From Bacteroidia bacterium (lineage in GTDB: Bacteria; Bacteroidota; Bacteroidia; UBA4408): a DNA stretch of 33,234 nt. Of this stretch, positions 3,907-29,852 are shown piece after piece. Position 1 is the first letter of the stretch; each line of letters starts with the position of its first letter. The notes beneath the pieces are model-generated. The model worked only from the letters and a program-made list of their open reading frames with translations, had not been told where the DNA came from and did no database searches. The stretch is from the NCBI GenBank assembly GCA_014376525.1, contig JACMRI010000150.1:1-33234 (forward strand). The letters are read 5' to 3'. Both the position numbers and the translations under genes were made by a program.

Positions 3907-5145
3907 ATGAAATTAATTACAGTTTTACTTACCACTTGCGCACTAGCCACACACTTAACTACTTTGGTTGCGGGTGGTTTTCAACTTAATGCACAAGGCG
4001 CAAAACAGCTGGGCATGGGACATGTAGGCACAGGCTTAGCTACTGATGCTAGTGCATTGTTTTTTAACCCTGGAGCTATTAGTTTTGCTGATAGTGCACG
4101 CTTGCGTTTAGCTGTTGCAGGCACGTTTATTAACGCCAATATTCAATACATCAATGGTTCGTACTCTGCACGTAATGTCCCGCATTTGGGCACACCCATT
4201 AATTTGTATGCAAGCTATCAACCTATTAAAAACATTCCGTTAAATGTAGGTATGGCTATATACACACCTTTTGGTAGCCAATTACAATGGGAAAACAATT
4301 GGCAAGGGCAAGCCGTTATACAAGAAATAAAACTTAAAACTATTTTTTATCAGCCAACGGTGTCCTACCAAATAGGTAAACACTTTGGCATAGGCATTGG
4401 ATATGTTATTGCCACCGGCGATTTTAGTTTGTCCAAAGCAGTACCATTAGCCAATCTACAAGGTGAATACGGACAAGCTGTGCTTACGGGTAAGGCAACA
4501 GGTACAGGTGTTAATGCAGGTATTTACGTAAATCTTACTGACAAATGGAAATTTGGTATGAACTATCGCTCACGTGTAACCGCTAAAGTAAAAGCAGGAA
4601 CATCTACATTTACAACTCCTACTTATGTTGCGCAATATTTTCCTTCAACCAATAATTTTACTACACAACTTAACTTGCCCGATGTTTTTACATTTGGCGT
4701 AAGCTACAAGTGCAACGATAAACTTACATTAGCTGCTGATATTATGTTTGCTGATTGGAGTAGCTACGATAGTTTAATTATTGATTTTGAAACCAACACT
4801 GATAAATTAAAAGATATACACCAAGCTAAAAAATGGAAAGGAGCATACATCTATCGTATGGGAGCAAGCTACAAAACTACTGATAAACTTACCTTGCGTG
4901 CAGGTGCATACTATGATGTGAGCCCAGTGCAAGACGATTACTTGTCAGCCGAAACTCCTGATGCCAACAAAGTAGGATTAACTGCTGGCGTAAGTTACAA
5001 CTTAGGAAAGAAACTTAGCATAGATGCTGCTTTACTTTATATAGAAAGCGCAGCACGCAAAGGGGGTAATGCAGAAGCTAATTTTTATGGAACTTACAAA
5101 TCTAATGCTAAAGCGGTGAGCATAGGCATTAGCTATACTTTTTAA
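3907..5145 (+). CDS. Outer membrane transporter of the OmpP1/FadL/TodX family
   Basis: A 412-aa outer-membrane beta-barrel with a Sec signal peptide (about residues 1-22). The mature N-terminus, G-G-F-Q-L-N-A-Q-G-A-K-Q-L-G-M-G, then G-T-G-L-A, D-A-S-A-L-F-F-N-P-G-A, is the family signature; this N-terminal plug segment forms the substrate channel in FadL. The remainder alternates aromatic and polar residues in beta-strand style and ends in S-I-G-I-S-Y-T-F, a normal barrel C-terminus with terminal Phe. The family moves long-chain fatty acids and other hydrophobic compounds across the outer membrane; the substrate here is unknown. It has its own promoter box and is followed by a secreted esterase after 41 nt. 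Confidence 0.92.
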   Translation: MKLITVLLTTCALATHLTTLVAGGFQLNAQGAKQLGMGHVGTGLATDASALFFNPGAISFADSARLRLAVAGTFINANIQYINGSYSARNVPHLGTPINLYASYQPIKNIPLNVGMAIYTPFGSQLQWENNWQGQAVIQEIKLKTIFYQPTVSYQIGKHFGIGIGYVIATGDFSLSKAVPLANLQGEYGQAVLTGKATGTGVNAGIYVNLTDKWKFGMNYRSRVTAKVKAGTSTFTTPTYVAQYFPSTNNFTTQLNLPDVFTFGVSYKCNDKLTLAADIMFADWSSYDSLIIDFETNTDKLKDIHQAKKWKGAYIYRMGASYKTTDKLTLRAGAYYDVSPVQDDYLSAETPDANKVGLTAGVSYNLGKKLSIDAALLYIESAARKGGNAEANFYGTYKSNAKAVSIGISYTF

Positions 5146-6544: not shown

Positions 6545-6877
6545 ATGATTACTACTGATTATAAAACAGATTACGCCATTGTAACGATAGTTGCAGAAAA
6601 ATTAGATGGTACTATTGCTCAAGATTTAAAATCGGAGTTTATAAAGGTGAGCGCACGAAACGTCAACAATGTTATTGTAAACTTATTTAATAATAAGTAC
6701 TGCGATTCATCAGGGTTAAGTGCGCTGCTAGTAGGCAATAGATTATGTAAAAATGCGGGAGGTAAGTTTTTCATTACAGCGTTACAAGAAAACGTAGCGC
6801 GTTTAATTCAAATATCTCAATTAGACACGGTGTTATTTATTACTTCTACGGTAGAAGAAGCTGAAGCAAAAATTTAA
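6545..6877 (+). CDS. STAS-domain anti-anti-sigma factor (SpoIIAA/RsbV type)
   Basis: A 110-aa single-domain STAS protein. The key segment is N-K-Y-C-D-S-S-G-L-S-A (about residues 50-60); the serine after Asp54 in this D-S-S-G-L loop is the site phosphorylated by the partner kinase in SpoIIAA and RsbV. The following amphipathic stretch (N-R-L-C-K-N-A-G-G-K-F-F-I-T) and the C-terminal V-A-R-L-I-Q-I-S-Q-L-D-T-V-L complete the fold. In partner switching the dephosphorylated form sequesters an anti-sigma kinase. No such kinase is adjacent; a SpoIIE-type phosphatase able to dephosphorylate such a protein lies 20 kb away at 26653. The gene appears to be a single-gene or short transcript with its own -7 box. 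Confidence 0.88.
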   Translation: MITTDYKTDYAIVTIVAEKLDGTIAQDLKSEFIKVSARNVNNVIVNLFNNKYCDSSGLSALLVGNRLCKNAGGKFFITALQENVARLIQISQLDTVLFITSTVEEAEAKI

Positions 6878-7807: not shown

Positions 7808-8719
7808 ATGAGTTTTAAAGTAACTATTTTAGGTTGCGGGTCGGCTACACCCACCGCGCAACGTAACCCAACCGCCCAAGTAGTAGAACTACATGGGCGG
7901 TTTTTTTTAATTGATTGTGCCGAAGGAACACAAATGCAATTGCGCCGCAATAAAATTAATTTTCAGCATATAGACCATGTGTTTATTTCGCACCTACACG
8001 GCGATCATTTTTTTGGTTTGATAGGTTTTATAAGTAGTATGCACCTGTGGGGGCGTATAAAACCATTGCATATATATGCTAATGAAAAATTGCGTGAAAT
8101 AATAGAGTTACAATTAAACTCGTCAGATTCCCTACTGCGTTACGACATTAACTGGCACACACTTAATTATGATGGTAAACATAAATTATACGATGATAAA
8201 ACTGTTGAAGTATTTTCGTTTCCATTAAACCATCGCATACCTACTTGTGGTTTTTTAATACAAGAAAAACAAAAAGAGCGTAATCTAATACACTCTAAAA
8301 TAATACAGTACGACATACCTATAGACCAAATAAATGCTATAAAACAAGGGTCAGATTTGTTACTTGAAGATGGTACTCCTGTGCCAAATGACGAAATAAC
8401 CACTGCGCCACCAAGTACACGCTGCTATGCTTTTTGTAGTGATACTATATATGATGAAAATGTGGTAAAATACATTAAAGATGCTACCTTGCTATACCAC
8501 GAAGCTACATTTATGCATAATTTGCTAGAGCGTGCCAAAGAAACTTACCACAGCACCACTATACAAGCCGCTACCATAGCGCAATTGGCTAATGTACAAC
8601 AATTGGTTATTGGCCACTATTCCGCTCGATATAGCGATACCTTGCCGTTACTGGAAGAGGCACGAACTGTATTTGCAAACACACAAATGGCAATGGACGG
8701 ACGAATATTTGAAATTTAA
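7808..8719 (+). CDS. rnz: Ribonuclease Z (tRNA 3' endonuclease)
   Basis: A 303-aa metallo-beta-lactamase-fold enzyme that cuts the 3' trailer from pre-tRNA. The zinc-binding motif S-H-L-H-G-D-H-F-F-G-L (His62, His64, Asp66, His67) is complete. The N-terminus has the typical L-G-C-G-S-A-T-P-T-x-x-R-N-P-T-A-Q. Further ligand regions are seen as F-P-L-N-H-R-I-P (about residue 140), F-C-S-D-T-I-Y (Asp of the C-terminal half), L-L-Y-H-E-A-T-F and, near the end, I-G-H-Y-S-A-R-Y. The length matches short-form bacterial RNase Z. It precedes the HAD gene by 31 nt. Confidence 0.96.
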   Translation: MSFKVTILGCGSATPTAQRNPTAQVVELHGRFFLIDCAEGTQMQLRRNKINFQHIDHVFISHLHGDHFFGLIGFISSMHLWGRIKPLHIYANEKLREIIELQLNSSDSLLRYDINWHTLNYDGKHKLYDDKTVEVFSFPLNHRIPTCGFLIQEKQKERNLIHSKIIQYDIPIDQINAIKQGSDLLLEDGTPVPNDEITTAPPSTRCYAFCSDTIYDENVVKYIKDATLLYHEATFMHNLLERAKETYHSTTIQAATIAQLANVQQLVIGHYSARYSDTLPLLEEARTVFANTQMAMDGRIFEI

Positions 8720-8750
8720 TATTTATCAATTGAATCCACCATTTAAAAAA

Positions 8751-9479
8751 ATGATAAAATATTATAAACATATATTGCTAGACCTAGACCGTACCCTATG
8801 GGATATGGACAAAAATAGCTATGAAACTATGCAAGAGTTATTTGCAAAATACATTAGTATAAAACCCGAAGTAGTGTGTTCGTTTGATGAATTTTGGAAA
8901 CAATACACACCAATAAATGATGCCCTATGGGAAGGTATGCGCAATGGCACTGTAGATAAACAACAACTACGCTACGAGCGGATAAAACAAACCCTAATAG
9001 CGTTGCACATTGATGAGTTATTTTCAGCAAACCAAATAAATAAAATAGGGCTAGAATATACCAATACTGCGCCACTCAAAACAAACTTAGTATCCAATGC
9101 ATTAGAACTATTACAGTATTTAAAAAAGCAAAAATACACCCTACATATAATTACCAATGGGTTTAAAAAATCACAAGTAACTAAACTAAAACAATGTAAC
9201 ATAGCGCATTATTTTAAGCATATTATAACATCGGAAGATTTGGGTGTTTCAAAGCCACACTTACGTTTTTTTACTGCAACTTTAAATCTAATAAAAGCTA
9301 ACGCTAATGAGTGCTTAGTAATAGGCGATGATTTAGCTATAGACTGTGAAGGCGCCGCTAATGCTGGTATTGATAGTGTATGGTTTGATTATTTAGAAAC
9401 AAATAAGCATATTGAATACACTACTATTAAACGTATTACACATTTGAGCGAACTAATTGTAAGTCCTAATTTAAGTTAA
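8751..9479 (+). CDS. yjjG: YjjG-family noncanonical pyrimidine nucleotidase (HAD superfamily)
   Basis: A 242-aa HAD hydrolase, cytoplasmic. Motif I is L-L-D-L-D-R-T-L-W-D with nucleophile Asp11 and Asp13; the W-D after it is typical of the YjjG subfamily (TIGR02254). Motif II is H-I-I-T-N-G-F (Thr), motif III the lysine in G-V-S-K-P, and motif IV I-G-D-D-L-A-I-D-C-E-G-A. A helical cap lies between about residues 18 and 95. YjjG removes phosphate from nonstandard pyrimidine nucleotides. The frame stays open upstream into rnz (to 8592), but only the ATG at 8751 gives motif I at the usual distance from the N-terminus, so that start was chosen. Its 3' end converges on the YiiX-like gene with only 40 nt between, and no hairpin was found there. 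Confidence 0.85.
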   Translation: MIKYYKHILLDLDRTLWDMDKNSYETMQELFAKYISIKPEVVCSFDEFWKQYTPINDALWEGMRNGTVDKQQLRYERIKQTLIALHIDELFSANQINKIGLEYTNTAPLKTNLVSNALELLQYLKKQKYTLHIITNGFKKSQVTKLKQCNIAHYFKHIITSEDLGVSKPHLRFFTATLNLIKANANECLVIGDDLAIDCEGAANAGIDSVWFDYLETNKHIEYTTIKRITHLSELIVSPNLS

Positions 9480-9519
9480 TTTTAAACTTAATTATTACTG
9501 CTTTTGCGTGTACATTTAT

Positions 9520-10155
9520 TTAGTCTACAAATTCTATATGTTTACTACGGCTTATTGCTCCAGGGTTACAGCCTTTAAAGCCTTCGGGTATGGGTATGTC
9601 TAAATTTTTGTAATAGGTTACCCAAGCAGGAAAAAAAGTGTGTGTATCAGGATCTTTAAACGTCATGGGTTCAAGTTCAAAAAAAACGTGATTGTTGTTG
9701 GCTTTATAAAATGCTCTATACATTAGTTCGCTACAGTATAATTTATCATCTCCCATTATATAATAGTCGTCGTAAGGTGTGCCTAAGTATGTAAGTGCTA
9801 TGTTTACGGCACGTTGCGCTAGTTGGGAGTGTTTTTCTTTTAAGCGTGCTAATTTTATTTTTGGTTTACCTAAGCTGTCTGCACTTCTATTAATAAAGGC
9901 TTGGTACGGAGTAAGTATAACCCCTTTGCCTACAGCTTCAATTACATATAAACTATCGTTGCGCCAGTAGCACAACCCCATATGGCTAAAATTATTGTTG
10001 TTATAACTTTGTGTTACTTTTTCTATGGCAATGCATAGGTCGCCACAATCCATGTCTTGAAATATAATATCTCCTGTTTTTATAGTATTAACGGTTGGTT
10101 GGGCTAGTATAACATTACTTACTACCAATAATAAAAATATAATTTTAAAACGCAT
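9520..10155 (-). CDS. Exported YiiX-like permuted papain-fold hydrolase (DUF830/PF05708 type)
   Basis: A 211-aa protein with a signal peptide (about residues 1-19, ending I-L-A-Q). The features of the permuted NlpC/P60-like family are present: T-G-D-I-I-F-Q (27-33), F-S-H-M-G with the catalytic His58, V-I-E-A-V (71-75) and L-Y-C-S-E-L with the nucleophile Cys141. G-T-P-Y-D-D (125-130) is typical of the group. The family acts on amide or thioester bonds (lipid or cell wall); the substrate is not determined. The ATG at 10155 was preferred to 10218 because it places a clean signal peptide at the N-terminus. It overlaps the 3' end of the TonB receptor gene by 11 bp, so both are probably translated from one mRNA. 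Confidence 0.82.
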   Translation of the reverse strand: MRFKIIFLLLVVSNVILAQPTVNTIKTGDIIFQDMDCGDLCIAIEKVTQSYNNNNFSHMGLCYWRNDSLYVIEAVGKGVILTPYQAFINRSADSLGKPKIKLARLKEKHSQLAQRAVNIALTYLGTPYDDYYIMGDDKLYCSELMYRAFYKANNNHVFFELEPMTFKDPDTHTFFPAWVTYYKNLDIPIPEGFKGCNPGAISRSKHIEFVD

Positions 10156-16736: not shown

Positions 16737-19700
16737 ATGAAAACTATTTGCACAACACTACTACTTACGTTAACGTTATTCGGTTATAACGCTACTTACG
16801 CATCTCACTTAGCAGGCGGGCAAATAACTTGGAAATGTAAGCCTAATGGCAAGTACCGTTTTTATTTGTCGTTATACCAAGCTTGCGAAGGAGGTAATTC
16901 AAGTCAAATTGGTTTAGGGCCAACATCATTATGCGTGTATAATCACCCTACCATTAACAGCATTACATTAAACGAAATGAATAATAGAGAAATATCTCAA
17001 CCTGGCTGCGCAGTTACTGGTGCTATAAAATGTGGCAATACTAAGCTAGGTGCAATGCAAGAAATTTTATACGAATCGGCTGATGTGGATTTAGGATTAT
17101 ATACACCAGGTATAAATGGATGGTGGTTTACCTATAGTAACTGTTGCAGACCAGGTGCAGTAGTCAATGTTTCTGATGCTGGTTTTACGTTACGCTCTAC
17201 GATGTATAATTATACTAATAAAAACGCATACCCGTGTTATGATAATTCGCCTATGTTTTTGGAGCAACCTGTTGGTATTGTAGCCAAAGGACAAGCTTTT
17301 AGCTATAATGCTAATGCCACTGATGCAGATGGGGATTCGGTAACTACGGAGTGGGGGCGCCCTATGACGGATACATGGACAGATGGAACAACTATAGACC
17401 CCACAGCTTGCCATGTTGGGACTGGGTCTAATCATTGGAAACTTAATTTACCAAGCGCATCTCGCACAACTTATTCCACTTTTAATGCTCCATACACATT
17501 TAGCAATCCATTAAGCGCTATTCAAATTCCGCCTGTAGCGCCAGCAACACTATCACCCCCGCTATTAGAACCTATAACAGGACAAATAAATTTTGTAGTG
17601 CCTAACACTGTACTTACAGGAATGTATGTGTTTACTTTAAAAACAACATCTTTTCGTAATGGTATAAAAATAGCCGAAGTTAATCGCGATTTTATATTTA
17701 GTGTATATCTAGCGCAAACAGATAAAACACCTACCATAGCACCAGTACAGTTTGTTAAAAATGGTATTGCAGACTCTACAGGCTATGAACTAAATGTAAA
17801 CGCAGGAGATTTAGTAGAATTTGACATTACGGCTCAAGATACTATTATACAGCAACAAACATTAGCCACTACAGGATTACAATATGGAACACTTACAAAC
17901 TATAATAAATATGATTCCAGTACATTTAATTTAAAAGCACCATGTACCACACCACCATGTAGTGCTACAGCCACAAGTGGTTGCGGCACACCGCCATGTG
18001 CGCAATTTAGTTTTACTACTCCTAATCCTTTTGTACCTACCGCAGGTGTAACTACTGGTTATGGGCAAACTGGTGGGCATTTTAGTTGGCAGACGAACTG
18101 TATTCACGCAAGTAACTTAGTAACAGCAGGCGCAGGTGGCACAAGTACGCAAGCGTACAATACGTTTCAGTTTGTATTCAAATCTATTGATGATGCTTGC
18201 CCTGTACCCGGCTTTAAATATCAAACTATACGTGTAAATGTACACCCTGTTCCTCCACCCGCAAACACAATTACACAAACAACACTGTTGTGCAATGGCG
18301 ATAGTAATGCCACAGCAAGTCTATCTATTTTAAATAATCCTAACAACTATACTACTACGTGGAACACTATACCTATTCAAACAGGATTAACAGCTAGTAA
18401 TCTTAAAGAAGGCGATTATTATGTGTTTTTTGAAGACACTGTAAATAATTCAGTTTGTGGAGGTAAATCTGGAAAAAAAGTAACAATTGTAGCACCACCT
18501 AAATTAACCACAACTACAACACAAAACAACTTGTGTAATGGTAATTCTAATGGTACTGCTATTATTACCGCTACAGGCGGAACACAACCTTACTCTTATG
18601 CTTGGAATACAAGCCCTGTACAAACCAATGATACTGCTATAAACTTACCAAGTGGTAATACCTCTTGCACAGTAACCGATGCTAATGGTTGTACAATAGT
18701 TACAAATACTGGTTTAGCGGCTGTTGCAACATCTGCTATTAATTGTAACGGACGCTCGGGAAACCCTGTTGTTACAGTGCAAGGCGGGAATAAACCTTAC
18801 ACGTATAGTTGGAATACTACACCTGTACAAACTACGAACACTGCTTATGTTACACTTGCTGGAGCTTATACCTGTACGGTTACTGATGCTACAAGTTGCA
18901 CTATTCAAGCATCAGTAAATGTGGTAAATAAACCAGGCCTAACTGTACTTAATAATACCCCTGTTAATTGCTTTGAAGATAGTACAGGAGTATTAACTGT
19001 AAAAGTAACAGGAGGCAAAGCGCCATATATTTACAACTGGTATTATCAAGGAATACCTTATGATACATCACTAAACCTCACACACTTAAAGGCAGGTATT
19101 TATACATTCAACATTACTGATGGTAACAACTGCACAAGCAATACCAATATAACTGTAGCAGAGCCCGTAAAACTTACACATACGGTTAACAGTTTTGATG
19201 TGTTGTGTGCAGGCTATGGAAACGGAGTAATTTACCTTACTGAAAATGGAGGTAATATACCTTATAATTATTCTTGGAATTTACTTCCTCTTAATAATTC
19301 TTCTTATTTAAATAATCTTAACGGAGGTAATTACCGATGTATAATTACTGATGCAAAAGGTTGTGCAGATACTGCTAACGTTGTAATAAATGAACCTTTA
19401 CCACTTACGTTAAGTTTTACACAATTGAAATCATGCAATCAAGACGCCTCTGTAACGGCTCATGTTACAGGAGGGACACCAAATTACACATACACTTGGA
19501 ATACAACACCTGTAGCTTATTATTACATAGATTCTAGTGCATTTACTCATAATACAGGTACGTATATATGTAAAATAAGAGACCAAAACTCCTGCTATGT
19601 AACCGATAGTGTATTTGTAAACACAGATACTTCATTATTTAATGTGGCTATCAACTCGTCATCGTGCGCCACTTGTAACAATGGGAGTATAAAAGTAATT

Positions 19701-20129
19701 CCAACAGGAGGCTCGCAACCTTACTCTTATAGCATAAACAATGGGGCTATGCAAGCAGATTCTTTGTTTACAAACCTATTACCAGGTTCTTATTTAGTAA
19801 CCCTTGCCGACACTAATGGCTGCTGGGATACCGCTACTGTTATACTTGGTTATACAACACAGCTAGCCCATACCATCAATAATATTTCTTATAAAATATA
19901 CCCAAGCATTACTAGCGATAAACTTAATGTGGAAGTAAATTTAAAATATAATTCGCCAATAGCTATACGTATTTCAAGTTTAGAAAACAAACAGTTGTAT
20001 AGCACTAACTTTAAATCTACTACTACATTAAACGAAATAATTGATGTAAACGAATTAGCAAGTGGTACTTATTTTATAACTATACAAACTAACGAAGATA
20101 GCGTTACTCGTAAGTTTATAAAAGAGTAA
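16737..20129 (+). CDS. Large secreted SprB-repeat protein with T9SS type A sorting domain
   Basis: A 1130-aa exported protein, signal peptide 1-22 (ends A-T-Y-A). The first 510 residues begin S-H-L-A-G-G-Q-I-T-W-K-C, a common start in Bacteroidetes surface adhesins, and include a cadherin-like N-A-T-D-A-D-G-D-S segment near residue 194. Residues about 514-1040 hold seven repeats of 70-80 residues of the SprB kind (PF13573): each starts with a Cys motif such as L-C-N-G-N-S-N-G, has T-G-G-x-x-P-Y-x-Y-x-W in the middle, then G-x-Y-x-C-x-V-T-D-x-x-G-C. The C-terminus (about 1048-1130) is a type A sorting domain: Y-K-I-Y-P-S-I-T-S-D, L-A-S-G-T-Y-F-I-T-I. SprB is the mobile gliding adhesin of Flavobacterium johnsoniae; an adhesive or surface-filament role is inferred. 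It is a single-gene unit between divergent and downstream genes. Confidence 0.88.
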   Translation: MKTICTTLLLTLTLFGYNATYASHLAGGQITWKCKPNGKYRFYLSLYQACEGGNSSQIGLGPTSLCVYNHPTINSITLNEMNNREISQPGCAVTGAIKCGNTKLGAMQEILYESADVDLGLYTPGINGWWFTYSNCCRPGAVVNVSDAGFTLRSTMYNYTNKNAYPCYDNSPMFLEQPVGIVAKGQAFSYNANATDADGDSVTTEWGRPMTDTWTDGTTIDPTACHVGTGSNHWKLNLPSASRTTYSTFNAPYTFSNPLSAIQIPPVAPATLSPPLLEPITGQINFVVPNTVLTGMYVFTLKTTSFRNGIKIAEVNRDFIFSVYLAQTDKTPTIAPVQFVKNGIADSTGYELNVNAGDLVEFDITAQDTIIQQQTLATTGLQYGTLTNYNKYDSSTFNLKAPCTTPPCSATATSGCGTPPCAQFSFTTPNPFVPTAGVTTGYGQTGGHFSWQTNCIHASNLVTAGAGGTSTQAYNTFQFVFKSIDDACPVPGFKYQTIRVNVHPVPPPANTITQTTLLCNGDSNATASLSILNNPNNYTTTWNTIPIQTGLTASNLKEGDYYVFFEDTVNNSVCGGKSGKKVTIVAPPKLTTTTTQNNLCNGNSNGTAIITATGGTQPYSYAWNTSPVQTNDTAINLPSGNTSCTVTDANGCTIVTNTGLAAVATSAINCNGRSGNPVVTVQGGNKPYTYSWNTTPVQTTNTAYVTLAGAYTCTVTDATSCTIQASVNVVNKPGLTVLNNTPVNCFEDSTGVLTVKVTGGKAPYIYNWYYQGIPYDTSLNLTHLKAGIYTFNITDGNNCTSNTNITVAEPVKLTHTVNSFDVLCAGYGNGVIYLTENGGNIPYNYSWNLLPLNNSSYLNNLNGGNYRCIITDAKGCADTANVVINEPLPLTLSFTQLKSCNQDASVTAHVTGGTPNYTYTWNTTPVAYYYIDSSAFTHNTGTYICKIRDQNSCYVTDSVFVNTDTSLFNVAINSSSCATCNNGSIKVIPTGGSQPYSYSINNGAMQADSLFTNLLPGSYLVTLADTNGCWDTATVILGYTTQLAHTINNISYKIYPSITSDKLNVEVNLKYNSPIAIRISSLENKQLYSTNFKSTTTLNEIIDVNELASGTYFITIQTNEDSVTRKFIKE
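18280..19858 (+). repeat. Seven tandem SprB-like protein repeats
   Basis: Repeat units begin near codons 514, 597, 667, 742, 821, 896 and 976 of the host gene. They share C-N-G/C-F-E/C-A-G starts, a G-G-x-x-P-Y core and a closing T-D-x-x-x-C. DNA identity between units is low, so the array is old and unlikely to recombine readily. Confidence 0.8.
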
Positions 20130-26652: not shown

Positions 26653-28443
26653 TTAAACTCTAAAACCCATCATCAATATATCATCTATTTGCTCTTCTTG
26701 TCCTCGCCAATTTTCTATAGTTTGCATAAGTTTTTGGCGTTGATCTAGCATAGGCATATCATTTATTTCTAGCAATAATTCACGTAATCGTCGCGCTAAA
26801 AATTTCTTTCCTTGAGGTCCACCAAACTGATCGCGATAGCCGTCGGTACTTATATATACGGTATCTCCAGGTTCAAGTTGTATTATCTTATTAGTATAAT
26901 GTTTTTCGGCAGTGGCTACAAAAATCCCTATTGATAATTTATCACCGTCTATTTCTTGTATTTCTTTATTTCTTATTAAATAAAGGGAGGTGTATGCTCC
27001 TGCAAATTCGAGTGTGTTAGTTTCTAAATCTATAGCACACATGCTTATATCCATACCGTCTTTGCTTGTTGATGTTGCATTGTTTTGATGTAAGGTTTCG
27101 CTTACTCCACGGCTCAACTCGTCCAGCACCATTGATGCCGTGGGGTTTTCCAATCCTATTACTGCATTTTTAAGTAAATTATAACCCACAATACTCATAA
27201 ATGCACCTGGTACCCCGTGCCCTGTACAATCTACCGATGAAAAGAATATTTTTTTGCCGCGTTTCTCCACAAAATAAAAATCGCCACTTACAATATCTTT
27301 AGGCTTAAATAGTATAAATGATTGTGGCAATAATTGCTTTACAAAAAACTGTGGCGGTAATATAGCATCTTGTATGCGTTTGGCGTATCTGATACTGTCT
27401 GTAACTTGCGAAAACACATATTCTAACTCAGCACGTTGTGTTTCTATATGTTCTTTTTGGCGTACAACTTCTTCGGTACGCTCCATTACCTTAAACTCTA
27501 ACATACGTTCATTTTCGGCAAGGTCGCTACGCATCTTTAATAATGCTTCTCCAAGTCTATCTTCCTCGCTCAATGGTTTATAGTCAGAGTCAAAGTTACC
27601 AGCTCCCACTTCTTTGGCAAATTGTGTTGTACTTTCCAAACCTATCTTAAGGTTACTCACCGCTATAGACATATCGCCTATTTCGTCGTTCCTATACTTT
27701 ATTATTTCTGGAGGCAAAATACCTTTTGCTAATTTTTGTATAAAAATACGGAGTTTATCAATTGGTAAAACTATAGCTCTTACCGTAAATACGGCTATTA
27801 GCAAACCAAATATTACTAATATTACTCCCATGCTATTTACTACACTTTGTAATAAATCAAATGAATTAACCATTTCTCGGCTGTAATAATTTGCATTTTT
27901 ACGCTGGTGCTCAGATAACTCCTCTAGTTTTTCTAGTATATTTTTTGTTCGTACAGGAATTTCTCCACCAGGCTCAAACATTGGATTAATTTCAAATAAA
28001 ATCAACGCATCTTTATAAGCATCCATAGATATTAATTGGCTCATAATTAACTTATGTTGTTGAAATAGACTATCAACAGATAACAAAATTTGATTGAGCT
28101 TTTGTTTACTCTCATCATCCCAACTTTGAGAAACTTTTAATAAATTTTTTTTAAGTTGTGGATGCCCTGTTAAAATTAAGCGTCTAAGATTAGGTGCATC
28201 TACGTTCAATACTGGGCTTGTGGCTCTGTACCAACCATCAATCCACATTTTAGATTGTATAATTTCTAATTTAAATTCTTTAATAATATCAACCGAAGGA
28301 CTTATTTCATAATTTATTCTATTGTTAATAGACCTACTACTTTTAACGGTTGCCAAAGTAAATAAAAAAGCCAAAACAGTTAATAGGAGTAAAGCTCCAA
28401 AACCTAAGTAAAGTCGTACACCTATTGATAGTCGTTTTTTCAT
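26653..28443 (-). CDS. Membrane HAMP-SpoIIE/PP2C serine phosphatase (RsbU type)
   Basis: A 596-aa signal-transduction phosphatase. TM1 at about 12-33, a periplasmic sensor region 35-200 that is mostly helical, TM2 at about 203-225, a HAMP domain (226-275) and a second HAMP-like segment (275-312) holding F-A-K-E-V-G-A-G-N-F-D. A coiled coil (about 312-345) leads to the SpoIIE domain (about 350-596). Metal-binding and signature residues are D-I-V-S-G-D-F-Y (Asp388), D-C-T-G-H-G-V-P-G-A-F-M-S (Asp405), K-D-G-M-D-I (462-465), S-T-D-G-Y-R-D-Q-F-G-G and the closing D-D-I-L-M-M-G-F. It should dephosphorylate a STAS-domain antagonist. It begins 4 nt after the TPR gene in a three-gene operon. Confidence 0.92.
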   Translation of the reverse strand: MKKRLSIGVRLYLGFGALLLLTVLAFLFTLATVKSSRSINNRINYEISPSVDIIKEFKLEIIQSKMWIDGWYRATSPVLNVDAPNLRRLILTGHPQLKKNLLKVSQSWDDESKQKLNQILLSVDSLFQQHKLIMSQLISMDAYKDALILFEINPMFEPGGEIPVRTKNILEKLEELSEHQRKNANYYSREMVNSFDLLQSVVNSMGVILVIFGLLIAVFTVRAIVLPIDKLRIFIQKLAKGILPPEIIKYRNDEIGDMSIAVSNLKIGLESTTQFAKEVGAGNFDSDYKPLSEEDRLGEALLKMRSDLAENERMLEFKVMERTEEVVRQKEHIETQRAELEYVFSQVTDSIRYAKRIQDAILPPQFFVKQLLPQSFILFKPKDIVSGDFYFVEKRGKKIFFSSVDCTGHGVPGAFMSIVGYNLLKNAVIGLENPTASMVLDELSRGVSETLHQNNATSTSKDGMDISMCAIDLETNTLEFAGAYTSLYLIRNKEIQEIDGDKLSIGIFVATAEKHYTNKIIQLEPGDTVYISTDGYRDQFGGPQGKKFLARRLRELLLEINDMPMLDQRQKLMQTIENWRGQEEQIDDILMMGFRV

Positions 28444-28446
28444 ACG

Positions 28447-29325
28447 TTACTTATAGTTTTCCAATTCAAGTGTGTACTTAGCGTCTAACTCAGTTTCGTT
28501 GAGGGCGTGGTATATATTGCGTAAACCTTCTACCACACTTTTATCTTTGCCATACTTATATGCACGCAATAAATAAGGCAATGCTTTACGGTATTGTACT
28601 ATGGCTTTATCTCCCGCTTCGTCTAGTAAAGTAATATCTTCTACCACTTTAGGGTCTTCAACAATTGCAACACCTTTGTTATAGTAGTTTATACCTAGCT
28701 GTTTATTAGCATTTACATTAATGCTATCAATTTTTAATATTTGGCTATATTGCTCAATGGCTTGTTTAAAAGCATCTTCACGCGTATTATCTTTTTCAAA
28801 AATTGTTACAAATACAGTACCTAAAGCAGCTTTAAATTGCATTTCTTTTTGTTTTACAGCAGCATTGTTCGGGTCTATTACTGCCATACATTGCTTGTAA
28901 TAGTTAAAATATTCTATGGCTTTATCGTATGTTTTTTCGTTGAGCAATGCTCCAGCTTCGTTACTAAATTTGTTAGCTAAAGCTTTTATATTTAATGAAT
29001 CTTGGTCAAAATTTTCTTTTTTAGGGTCTAACAGTATTGCTTTTTTAAATGCCATAAACGACTCTATGCGTGTATTATGAGCTAATTCGGCAGTTTGTTT
29101 TTTGGCAAGTTCTTTATAAATAAATCCTTTGTAGTACCATACTTCCCAAGTAGTATTTTGTGTGGGGTCTTTTACACATTTATCAATAATGGTTACCGCT
29201 CCCTCTATATTTCCAGCTTGCCATACGCTTATAGCTTCCTCAGCAGTATTGGTTTGTGCCATAGCCGAACAGGCAATGATAGAAACCATTACAATAGTAA
29301 GATATATGTGATGCATGTCTTTCAT
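28447..29325 (-). CDS. Exported TPR-repeat protein
   Basis: A 292-aa protein with a signal sequence (about 1-23, ending S-A-M-A-Q). The I-I-A-C at 16-19 also resembles a lipobox, so export as a lipoprotein is possible. The rest is helical and shows TPR-like units, e.g. A-W-Q-A-G-N-I-E-G-A-like (29-45), Y-D-K-A-I-E-Y-F-N-Y-Y (about 134-144) and F-K-Q-A-I-E-Q-Y-S-Q-I-L-K-I-D (about 187-201). It should act as a periplasmic protein-binding scaffold. Its ATG overlaps the yfiR stop by one base, and its stop lies 4 nt from the phosphatase start. The position between a YfiR-like protein and a sensor phosphatase suggests it takes part in the same signal route. Confidence 0.85.
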   Translation of the reverse strand: MKDMHHIYLTIVMVSIIACSAMAQTNTAEEAISVWQAGNIEGAVTIIDKCVKDPTQNTTWEVWYYKGFIYKELAKKQTAELAHNTRIESFMAFKKAILLDPKKENFDQDSLNIKALANKFSNEAGALLNEKTYDKAIEYFNYYKQCMAVIDPNNAAVKQKEMQFKAALGTVFVTIFEKDNTREDAFKQAIEQYSQILKIDSINVNANKQLGINYYNKGVAIVEDPKVVEDITLLDEAGDKAIVQYRKALPYLLRAYKYGKDKSVVEGLRNIYHALNETELDAKYTLELENYK

Positions 29326-29852
29326 TAGTCCACAGGAATACTAAGCGTTACTAAACTCTGACTTACTTTGAGGCTTGCTTTTTCTGCATTATTTTTGCTT
29401 AATTCAAATTTTTGCTTGTTGCTTTGTATCACAAAATTGATAATAGCACCTTGCTTTACATAACCATCTTTTTCGGTTACTAGCAATGTATTATTCCCTT
29501 TTATTTTAGTAATAATAGATGGTATAGGGGTAGCATTATCTGCTGGGACAAATAAAATATGACATTTTTTAACATCGGCAAGGGTTGCAAATGCTTTAAT
29601 TTCAATTTTTTGACTACCTACTGATTTACCAGTGGTAATAGTAGTAAGTTCGTTAATAACAGACGATGTACCTAATACCCCAATGGTAAAAGCACCTGCA
29701 CGATTAGCCTCTTTCCACTCTACATATTTACTAAAATTATAAATAAATACAGCTTTTACACGGGCACTTGGGTCAGGGGGCGCAAAATAAAAAGTAGATG
29801 GACTAAAAGCCATCGTACTAATTAAGGTTAATATGAATATAAGTTTGCGCAC
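29325..29852 (-). CDS. yfiR: YfiR-family periplasmic regulator (DUF4154)
   Basis: A 175-aa exported protein, signal peptide about 1-24. The family pattern is clear: K-A-V-F-I-Y-N-F-S-K-Y-V-E-W (33-46), I-G-V-L-G (57-61), C-H-I-L-F-V (97-102), N-T-L-L-V-T-E-K-D-G-Y (121-131), I-N-F-V-I-Q-S-N-K-Q-K-F-E-L (138-151) and L-K-V-S-Q-S-L (161-167). In Pseudomonas aeruginosa YfiR binds and represses the HAMP-GGDEF protein YfiN, with disulfides tuning activity. Here only one cysteine (Cys97) is present, so that control cannot occur in the same way. Downstream genes are a TPR protein and a HAMP-SpoIIE phosphatase, in place of yfiN. A -7 box lies upstream. Confidence 0.88.
   Translation of the reverse strand: MRKLIFILTLISTMAFSPSTFYFAPPDPSARVKAVFIYNFSKYVEWKEANRAGAFTIGVLGTSSVINELTTITTGKSVGSQKIEIKAFATLADVKKCHILFVPADNATPIPSIITKIKGNNTLLVTEKDGYVKQGAIINFVIQSNKQKFELSKNNAEKASLKVSQSLVTLSIPVD

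Follow-up and report, generated by a model that had tools for sequence, protein, structure and literature searches.

The DNA analysed comes from a Bacteroidia bacterium (UBA4408). The window, by which we mean the whole stretch of 33,234 nt from contig JACMRI010000150.1, carries at 26653-29852 three minus-strand genes called as open reading frames: yfiR, a TPR gene and a phosphatase gene, together referred to here as the triad. An initial annotation had described them as encoding a YfiR-type regulator, an exported TPR protein and a two-transmembrane (TM) HAMP-SpoIIE phosphatase, and our analysis bore this out. The genes are tightly packed, with spacings of -1 and +3 nt: yfiR and the TPR gene overlap by 1 nt, and a gap of 3 nt separates the TPR gene from the phosphatase gene. 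The genes and the predicted segments of the phosphatase are as follows.

29325..29852, minus strand: YfiR-like (DUF4154) exported periplasmic protein, 175 aa, GTG start (Pfam PF13689, 6e-35)
28447..29325, minus strand: exported periplasmic TPR protein, 292 aa, signal peptide with the family-wide AQ motif at its end (Pfam TPR matches of relatives and structure search)
26653..28443, minus strand: two-TM HAMP SpoIIE/PP2C phosphatase with a SiaA-like catalytic part, 596 aa (Pfam SpoIIE, 7.6e-18)
27838..28341, minus strand: predicted periplasmic four-helix-bundle sensor region, about residues 35-202 of the phosphatase (AlphaFold2)
27667..27789, minus strand: HAMP-like segment, residues 219-259 (Pfam HAMP, 0.0027, below cut-off)
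26659..27255, minus strand: SpoIIE/PP2C catalytic domain, residues 397-595 by Pfam (SpoIIE, 7.6e-18, above cut-off)

The 5' neighbour of the triad is a divergent paaB gene. On the 3' side, a CoA-transferase subunit gene starts 52 nt past the stop codon of the phosphatase gene; since its position downstream of the phosphatase was not kept in mapped relatives, we limited the unit to three genes. Elsewhere in the window, positions 16737-20129 (plus strand) encode a surface protein of the gliding or adhesin-like type; it is 1130 aa long, contains SprB repeats and ends in a type IX secretion tail.

YfiR is known as a brake on a diguanylate cyclase. The window protein carries a DUF4154 YfiR/HmsC-like domain (Pfam PF13689, above cut-off) and is the only DUF4154 match in its genome. 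It scored 123.7 bits against the NCBIfam TOL_0243 YfiR-like model, whose cut-off is 125, and 23.4 bits against the NCBIfam equivalog 'regulatory sequestration protein YfiR', well below the cut-off of 85. A PDB sequence search with YfiR alone gave no match, and the fold was assigned by way of a relative's model rather than from the window protein's own sequence: the YfiR part of the model of relative L113 matched P. aeruginosa YfiR structures with TM-scores of 0.67-0.80 of target. In P. aeruginosa, YfiR contains the cysteine pairs Cys71-110 and Cys145-152 (PMC4655355). Mature window YfiR has a single cysteine, too few for two pairs, and 62 of 74 YfiR relatives have 0 or 1 Cys beyond residue 25. 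The window protein is a DUF4154 member that probably works like YfiR, outside the YfiBNR systems.

For the second protein, the window's own Pfam TPR match was sub-threshold; TPR models matched 12 of 17 relatives, and the structure search identified the TPR part of the L113 model as a TPR superhelix. Because the window sequence contains an IIAC motif, an outer-membrane lipoprotein was considered and rejected: none of 73 TPR relatives has a lipobox, and 69 of the 73 have a signal-peptidase-like [AG]Q near the N-terminus.

The phosphatase has two hydropathy maxima, at residues 15 and 207, which were read as TMs with about 168 residues between them, in agreement with the periplasmic region of 165 residues given by the initial annotation. 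HAMP was sub-threshold in the window protein (18.5 bits versus 25) and was matched at E<=0.01 in 16 of 17 relatives. The PP2C motifs SGDFY, DCTGHG, TDGY and QIDD lie between residues 386 and 588, and D388, D405, D534, D587 and D588 were invariant across the 17 relatives. The protein thus combines the features expected of SiaA, namely two TMs, a HAMP and a PP2C domain with Asp motifs. The match to the SiaA equivalog NF038263 reached 237 bits against a cut-off of 700 and spans HAMP to the C-terminus only. PDB entry 6k4e, a putative serine phosphatase, was matched with an E-value of 1.5e-42. Judged by sequence, the catalytic half is nearest to SiaA and the phosphatase is SiaA-like.

The AlphaFold2 model of the sensor region was an all-helical bundle (pLDDT 89.4, pTM 0.74). 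Using Foldseek, we matched it to the ligand-binding domains of the chemoreceptors MCP2201 and Vc1313 with a probability of 1.00 and TM about 0.7 of target, matches that give the fold class only, as their E-values (0.06-0.1) are not significant. Weaker PDB matches were the XylFII-LytS and TorT-TorS complexes, also with E-values that are not significant. The 4HB_MCP_1 model matched the sensor in 3 of 17 relatives. The modelled four-helix bundle has no relation to the sensor of YfiN, whose PAS domain is a CHASE8. The neighbour of window YfiR is a HAMP-SpoIIE protein, not a YfiN-type CHASE8/PAS-HAMP-GGDEF protein.

We then examined how far the gene order is conserved. In a phylum-wide sample YfiR occurred in 34 of 297 genomes, which came mostly from genera where YfiR is rare, and sampling of relatives was used instead. 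DUF4154 was present in 31 genomes of 60 relatives, and open reading frame maps of the DUF4154-bearing relatives showed the triad consecutive and on the same strand in most. Scanning 247 related genomes with a profile of the sensor region and one of the TPR family revealed the sensor directly 3' on the same strand, usually within less than 100 nt, for 74 of 75 TPR-family matches; in the lone exception (G014), yfiR-TPR and the sensor-phosphatase are on different contigs of one genome. Conversely, TPR stood just 5' of 72 of 73 strong sensor matches. The TPR alignment has too little contiguous conservation to serve as a genome-wide query. When 84,980 species genomes were searched with only the N-terminal half of the phosphatase (the sensor and HAMP alignment), 80 loci came up, 74 of them with a SpoIIE output. 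YfiR-TPR-phosphatase was seen at 69 of these 74. One further locus, L152, was counted as complete, as the TPR (4096-4983) and YfiR genes are present and the phosphatase start was called inside TPR; the other four end at contig edges. All 70 checkable SpoIIE loci, L152 included, therefore have TPR and YfiR upstream.

The order is kept across dozens of Bacteroidia families and has outlasted much sequence change, because aligned relatives are only 32-49% identical to the window protein in YfiR and only 25-33% in TPR. Because the genomes counted share ancestry, these figures do not stand for independent events, but many families are covered. The initial annotation had proposed looking for a conserved yfiR-TPR-SpoIIE order in other Bacteroidota and had held that rare co-occurrence in related genomes would speak against its idea. 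The order in 74/75 TPR matches and 70/70 loci provides the former, excludes the latter and rules out chance adjacency of the three genes. On the evidence of gene order, the triad is a genuine conserved signalling unit that is widespread in Bacteroidota. The TPR protein is typical of the YfiR-phosphatase pairing but not obligatory, since L063 and L070 pair YfiR with a sensor-phosphatase and have no TPR.

A closer tie between YfiR and the phosphatase came from gene fusions. Single proteins with the architecture YfiR-coiled coil-one TM-SpoIIE were present in seven sampled families (L059, L064, L069, L072, L073, L075 and L076), the last of which is the window's own family. Because YfiR and SpoIIE are fused in one polypeptide in these seven families, YfiR is very likely the input of the phosphatase. 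Of the signalling module suggested by the initial annotation, the evolutionary tie of YfiR to the phosphatase is upheld by the conserved operon and the fusions, and the STAS/anti-sigma output, discussed below, is the less likely part. The YfiR-TPR pair might instead control the phosphatase indirectly, for instance through an envelope response or upkeep, and make no contact with the sensor. Such a reading draws on the absence of TPR from some YfiR-sensor pairs, but the fusions place YfiR in the periplasm on the same chain as SpoIIE, and YfiR is nearly always beside the sensor family; we regard indirect control as unlikely.

Contact between the proteins was approached by modelling relative L113, in which YfiR, TPR and sensor lie in one frame; its stops were read through as Gly, and the resulting 668-residue linked chain was modelled. 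The AlphaFold model had a mean pLDDT of 90 and a pTM of 0.62, with all three domains confident. By our own estimates, this chain would reach a pTM of about 0.43 with the domains independent and about 0.60 with TPR and one partner fixed. The excess over the independent-domain estimate is a weakly suggestive hint, within the limits of the model, of contact between YfiR/TPR and the sensor. In a variant of direct control, YfiR would be a ligand-sensing receptor or activator in place of a repressor, comparable to TorT/TorS and XylFII/LytS, and TPR a scaffold or outer-membrane link. The sensor was modelled as a helical bundle and XylFII-LytS and TorS-TorT are among its weak structural matches, but those E-values are not significant and the sign of regulation is not readable from sequence. 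We hold this variant to be possible, though rather doubtful.

YfiR also occurred in other arrangements. When the four-helix sensor was part of kinase or GAF proteins, YfiR was mostly directly 5' and TPR was absent (L043, L153, L171, L174 and L175); L172 and L176 did not have YfiR in this position. In L064 (7868-9697) YfiR is joined in one protein to a class III adenylate/guanylate cyclase, and in L074 (5192-8410) to a PAS-GAF hybrid histidine kinase, both being YfiR outputs beyond GGDEF. YfiR adjoins CHASE8-HAMP histidine kinases in L031 and L032 and TonB-dependent receptors in L034 and L047, which suggests that several YfiR signalling formats exist in Bacteroidota.

We next considered the output. 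In the partner switch of P. aeruginosa, SiaB is the kinase that phosphorylates SiaC, and SiaA removes the phosphate from SiaC T68 (PMC7647112). Genes for siaB and siaC adjoin the triad in L045/L102 (one genome), L099, L106 and L112 and lie 3.5 kb off in L035, with the qualification that the soil MAGs behind L045, L099 and L106 resemble one another, so that these three may not count as independent cases. In addition, siaBC is beside the TPR-less YfiR-phosphatase of L063, and a SiaC gene follows the YfiR-SpoIIE fusion of L075. The L063 locus has two tandem SiaB (DUF6272) genes and then SiaC at 8333-9904, 3' of YfiR and a sensor-HAMP-GAF-SpoIIE phosphatase.

The window itself has no siaBC, and its genome carries a SiaB-SiaC pair on another contig (C75), 70% and 74% identical, respectively, to the triad-linked L045 pair and with a Thr at the SiaC T68 position. 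SiaB and a SiaC with the Thr68 equivalent are thus found in the same genome as the triad. A close SiaC homologue, defined as at least 180 bits to L045 SiaC by a line set after the scores had been seen, was present in 20 of 20 triad genomes versus 12 of 40 without the triad (Fisher 5e-8, a significance overstated by kinship) and in 2 of 11 genomes with YfiR but without the triad. Its presence in genomes lacking the triad counts against the SiaC link. The pairing of the triad with the C75 genes is likewise only a candidate one, as C75 is a different contig and 14 SpoIIE proteins share 6 SiaC matches in the window's genome. Neighbourhood and co-occurrence nevertheless support SiaC as the candidate substrate of the phosphatase, short of proof.

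The same genome (G000) gave 1 STAS match over cut-off and 0 GGDEF matches in an assembly that is 94% complete. A c-di-GMP output is ruled out for this genome as far as that assembly goes. With its 14 SpoIIE proteins, 6 SiaC matches and no GGDEF, the genome has much phospho-switch capacity and no c-di-GMP synthesis.

STAS proteins are the classic substrates of SpoIIE-family phosphatases, and a STAS/anti-sigma switch was the output put forward by the initial annotation. The genome's one STAS match lies in the window at 6545-6877 (plus strand), about 20 kb from the phosphatase, and is a stand-alone 110-aa protein with a DSSG motif; it is an alternative candidate substrate. However, the catalytic domain is nearest to SiaA, and no homologue of this STAS protein was found in the triad neighbourhoods fetched, whereas siaBC occurs near triads. 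With SiaBC present, GGDEF missing and a single good STAS match in the window's genome, the output is most likely a partner switch of the SiaBC type, as far as genome content can tell, and action on a classic STAS/anti-sigma partner switch is improbable.

The sequences themselves show which genes are present, their export signals and topology, the conserved order, the fusions, and the presence, neighbourhood and co-occurrence of SiaBC. The explanation that we somewhat favour is a trans-envelope module in which YfiR, with or via TPR, acts on the sensor bundle to set a SiaA-like phosphatase with SiaC as its substrate. YfiR and the TPR protein would be exported to the periplasm. The phosphatase would reside in the inner membrane, with its four-helix sensor in the periplasm, HAMP as a relay and the SiaA-like PP2C domain in the cytoplasm. 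We infer that YfiR binds the sensor bundle directly, that TPR has a part in this and that SiaC is the substrate: binding would set phosphatase activity, and an envelope signal would alter it. The PP2C domain would then dephosphorylate a conserved Thr/Ser of SiaC, which the SiaB kinase would phosphorylate, and SiaC would switch partners accordingly. As no GGDEF protein was found in the window's genome, a diguanylate cyclase of the SiaD type is an unlikely final partner of SiaC. Repression by YfiR is the default guess by analogy with YfiR/YfiN, and activation would be equally consistent with the sequence. More broadly, YfiR may serve Bacteroidota as a periplasmic input that plugs into many systems. 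The triad would then be a distinct, widespread branch with a phosphatase output: YfiR, together with a TPR protein dedicated to it, would gate a four-helix SiaA-like phosphatase, and this would drive a SiaBC switch whose output is something other than c-di-GMP. We consider this proposition evenly balanced.

These results tie a regulator known for c-di-GMP control to a protein-phosphorylation switch. The link of YfiR to a Ser/Thr phosphatase, by a conserved operon and by fusions, in a genome without GGDEF would show that the periplasmic module is independent of c-di-GMP and attachable to different outputs. SiaBC-type switches are abundant in these Bacteroidota, and we found no account of their signals or targets in this group; the triad supplies such switches with an input and names a specific set of partners: YfiR, TPR, sensor and SiaC. 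In open-licence journal papers we found no description of YfiR together with SpoIIE, PP2C, kinases of Bacteroidetes or flavobacteria. As far as found, the triad is a previously undescribed form of YfiR signalling, one whose output is a SiaA-like phosphatase.

Among known systems, the triad resembles YfiBNR of P. aeruginosa in having a periplasmic DUF4154 protein, with a matching predicted YfiR fold, beside a two-TM HAMP signalling enzyme. It differs in its output (a PP2C phosphatase, where YfiN has GGDEF), in its sensor (a four-helix bundle, where YfiN has PAS/CHASE8), in the lack of the Cys71-110 and Cys145-152 pairs from window YfiR, and in having an exported TPR protein in place of the OmpA-like lipoprotein YfiB; no OmpA-like gene was present among the flanking genes scanned. 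With SiaABC(D) of P. aeruginosa it shares a SiaA-family PP2C phosphatase with two TMs and HAMP, together with a SiaB kinase and a SiaC with the T68 equivalent in the window's genome and, in some relatives, beside the triad (PMC7647112). Unlike that system, the triad adds YfiR and TPR genes upstream, siaBC is usually not adjacent, and the window's genome has neither SiaD nor any GGDEF. The Bacteroidota systems of YfiR with CHASE8-HAMP or four-helix-bundle histidine kinases (L031, L032 and L043) likewise place YfiR next to a periplasmic sensor with a HAMP or kinase output, but their output is a histidine kinase and they have no TPR protein. Finally, TorT-TorS and XylFII-LytS, the weak structural matches, also have a periplasmic protein on the helical-bundle sensor of a signalling enzyme; with their periplasmic-binding-protein folds and histidine kinase outputs, they provide a precedent rather than a case of homology.
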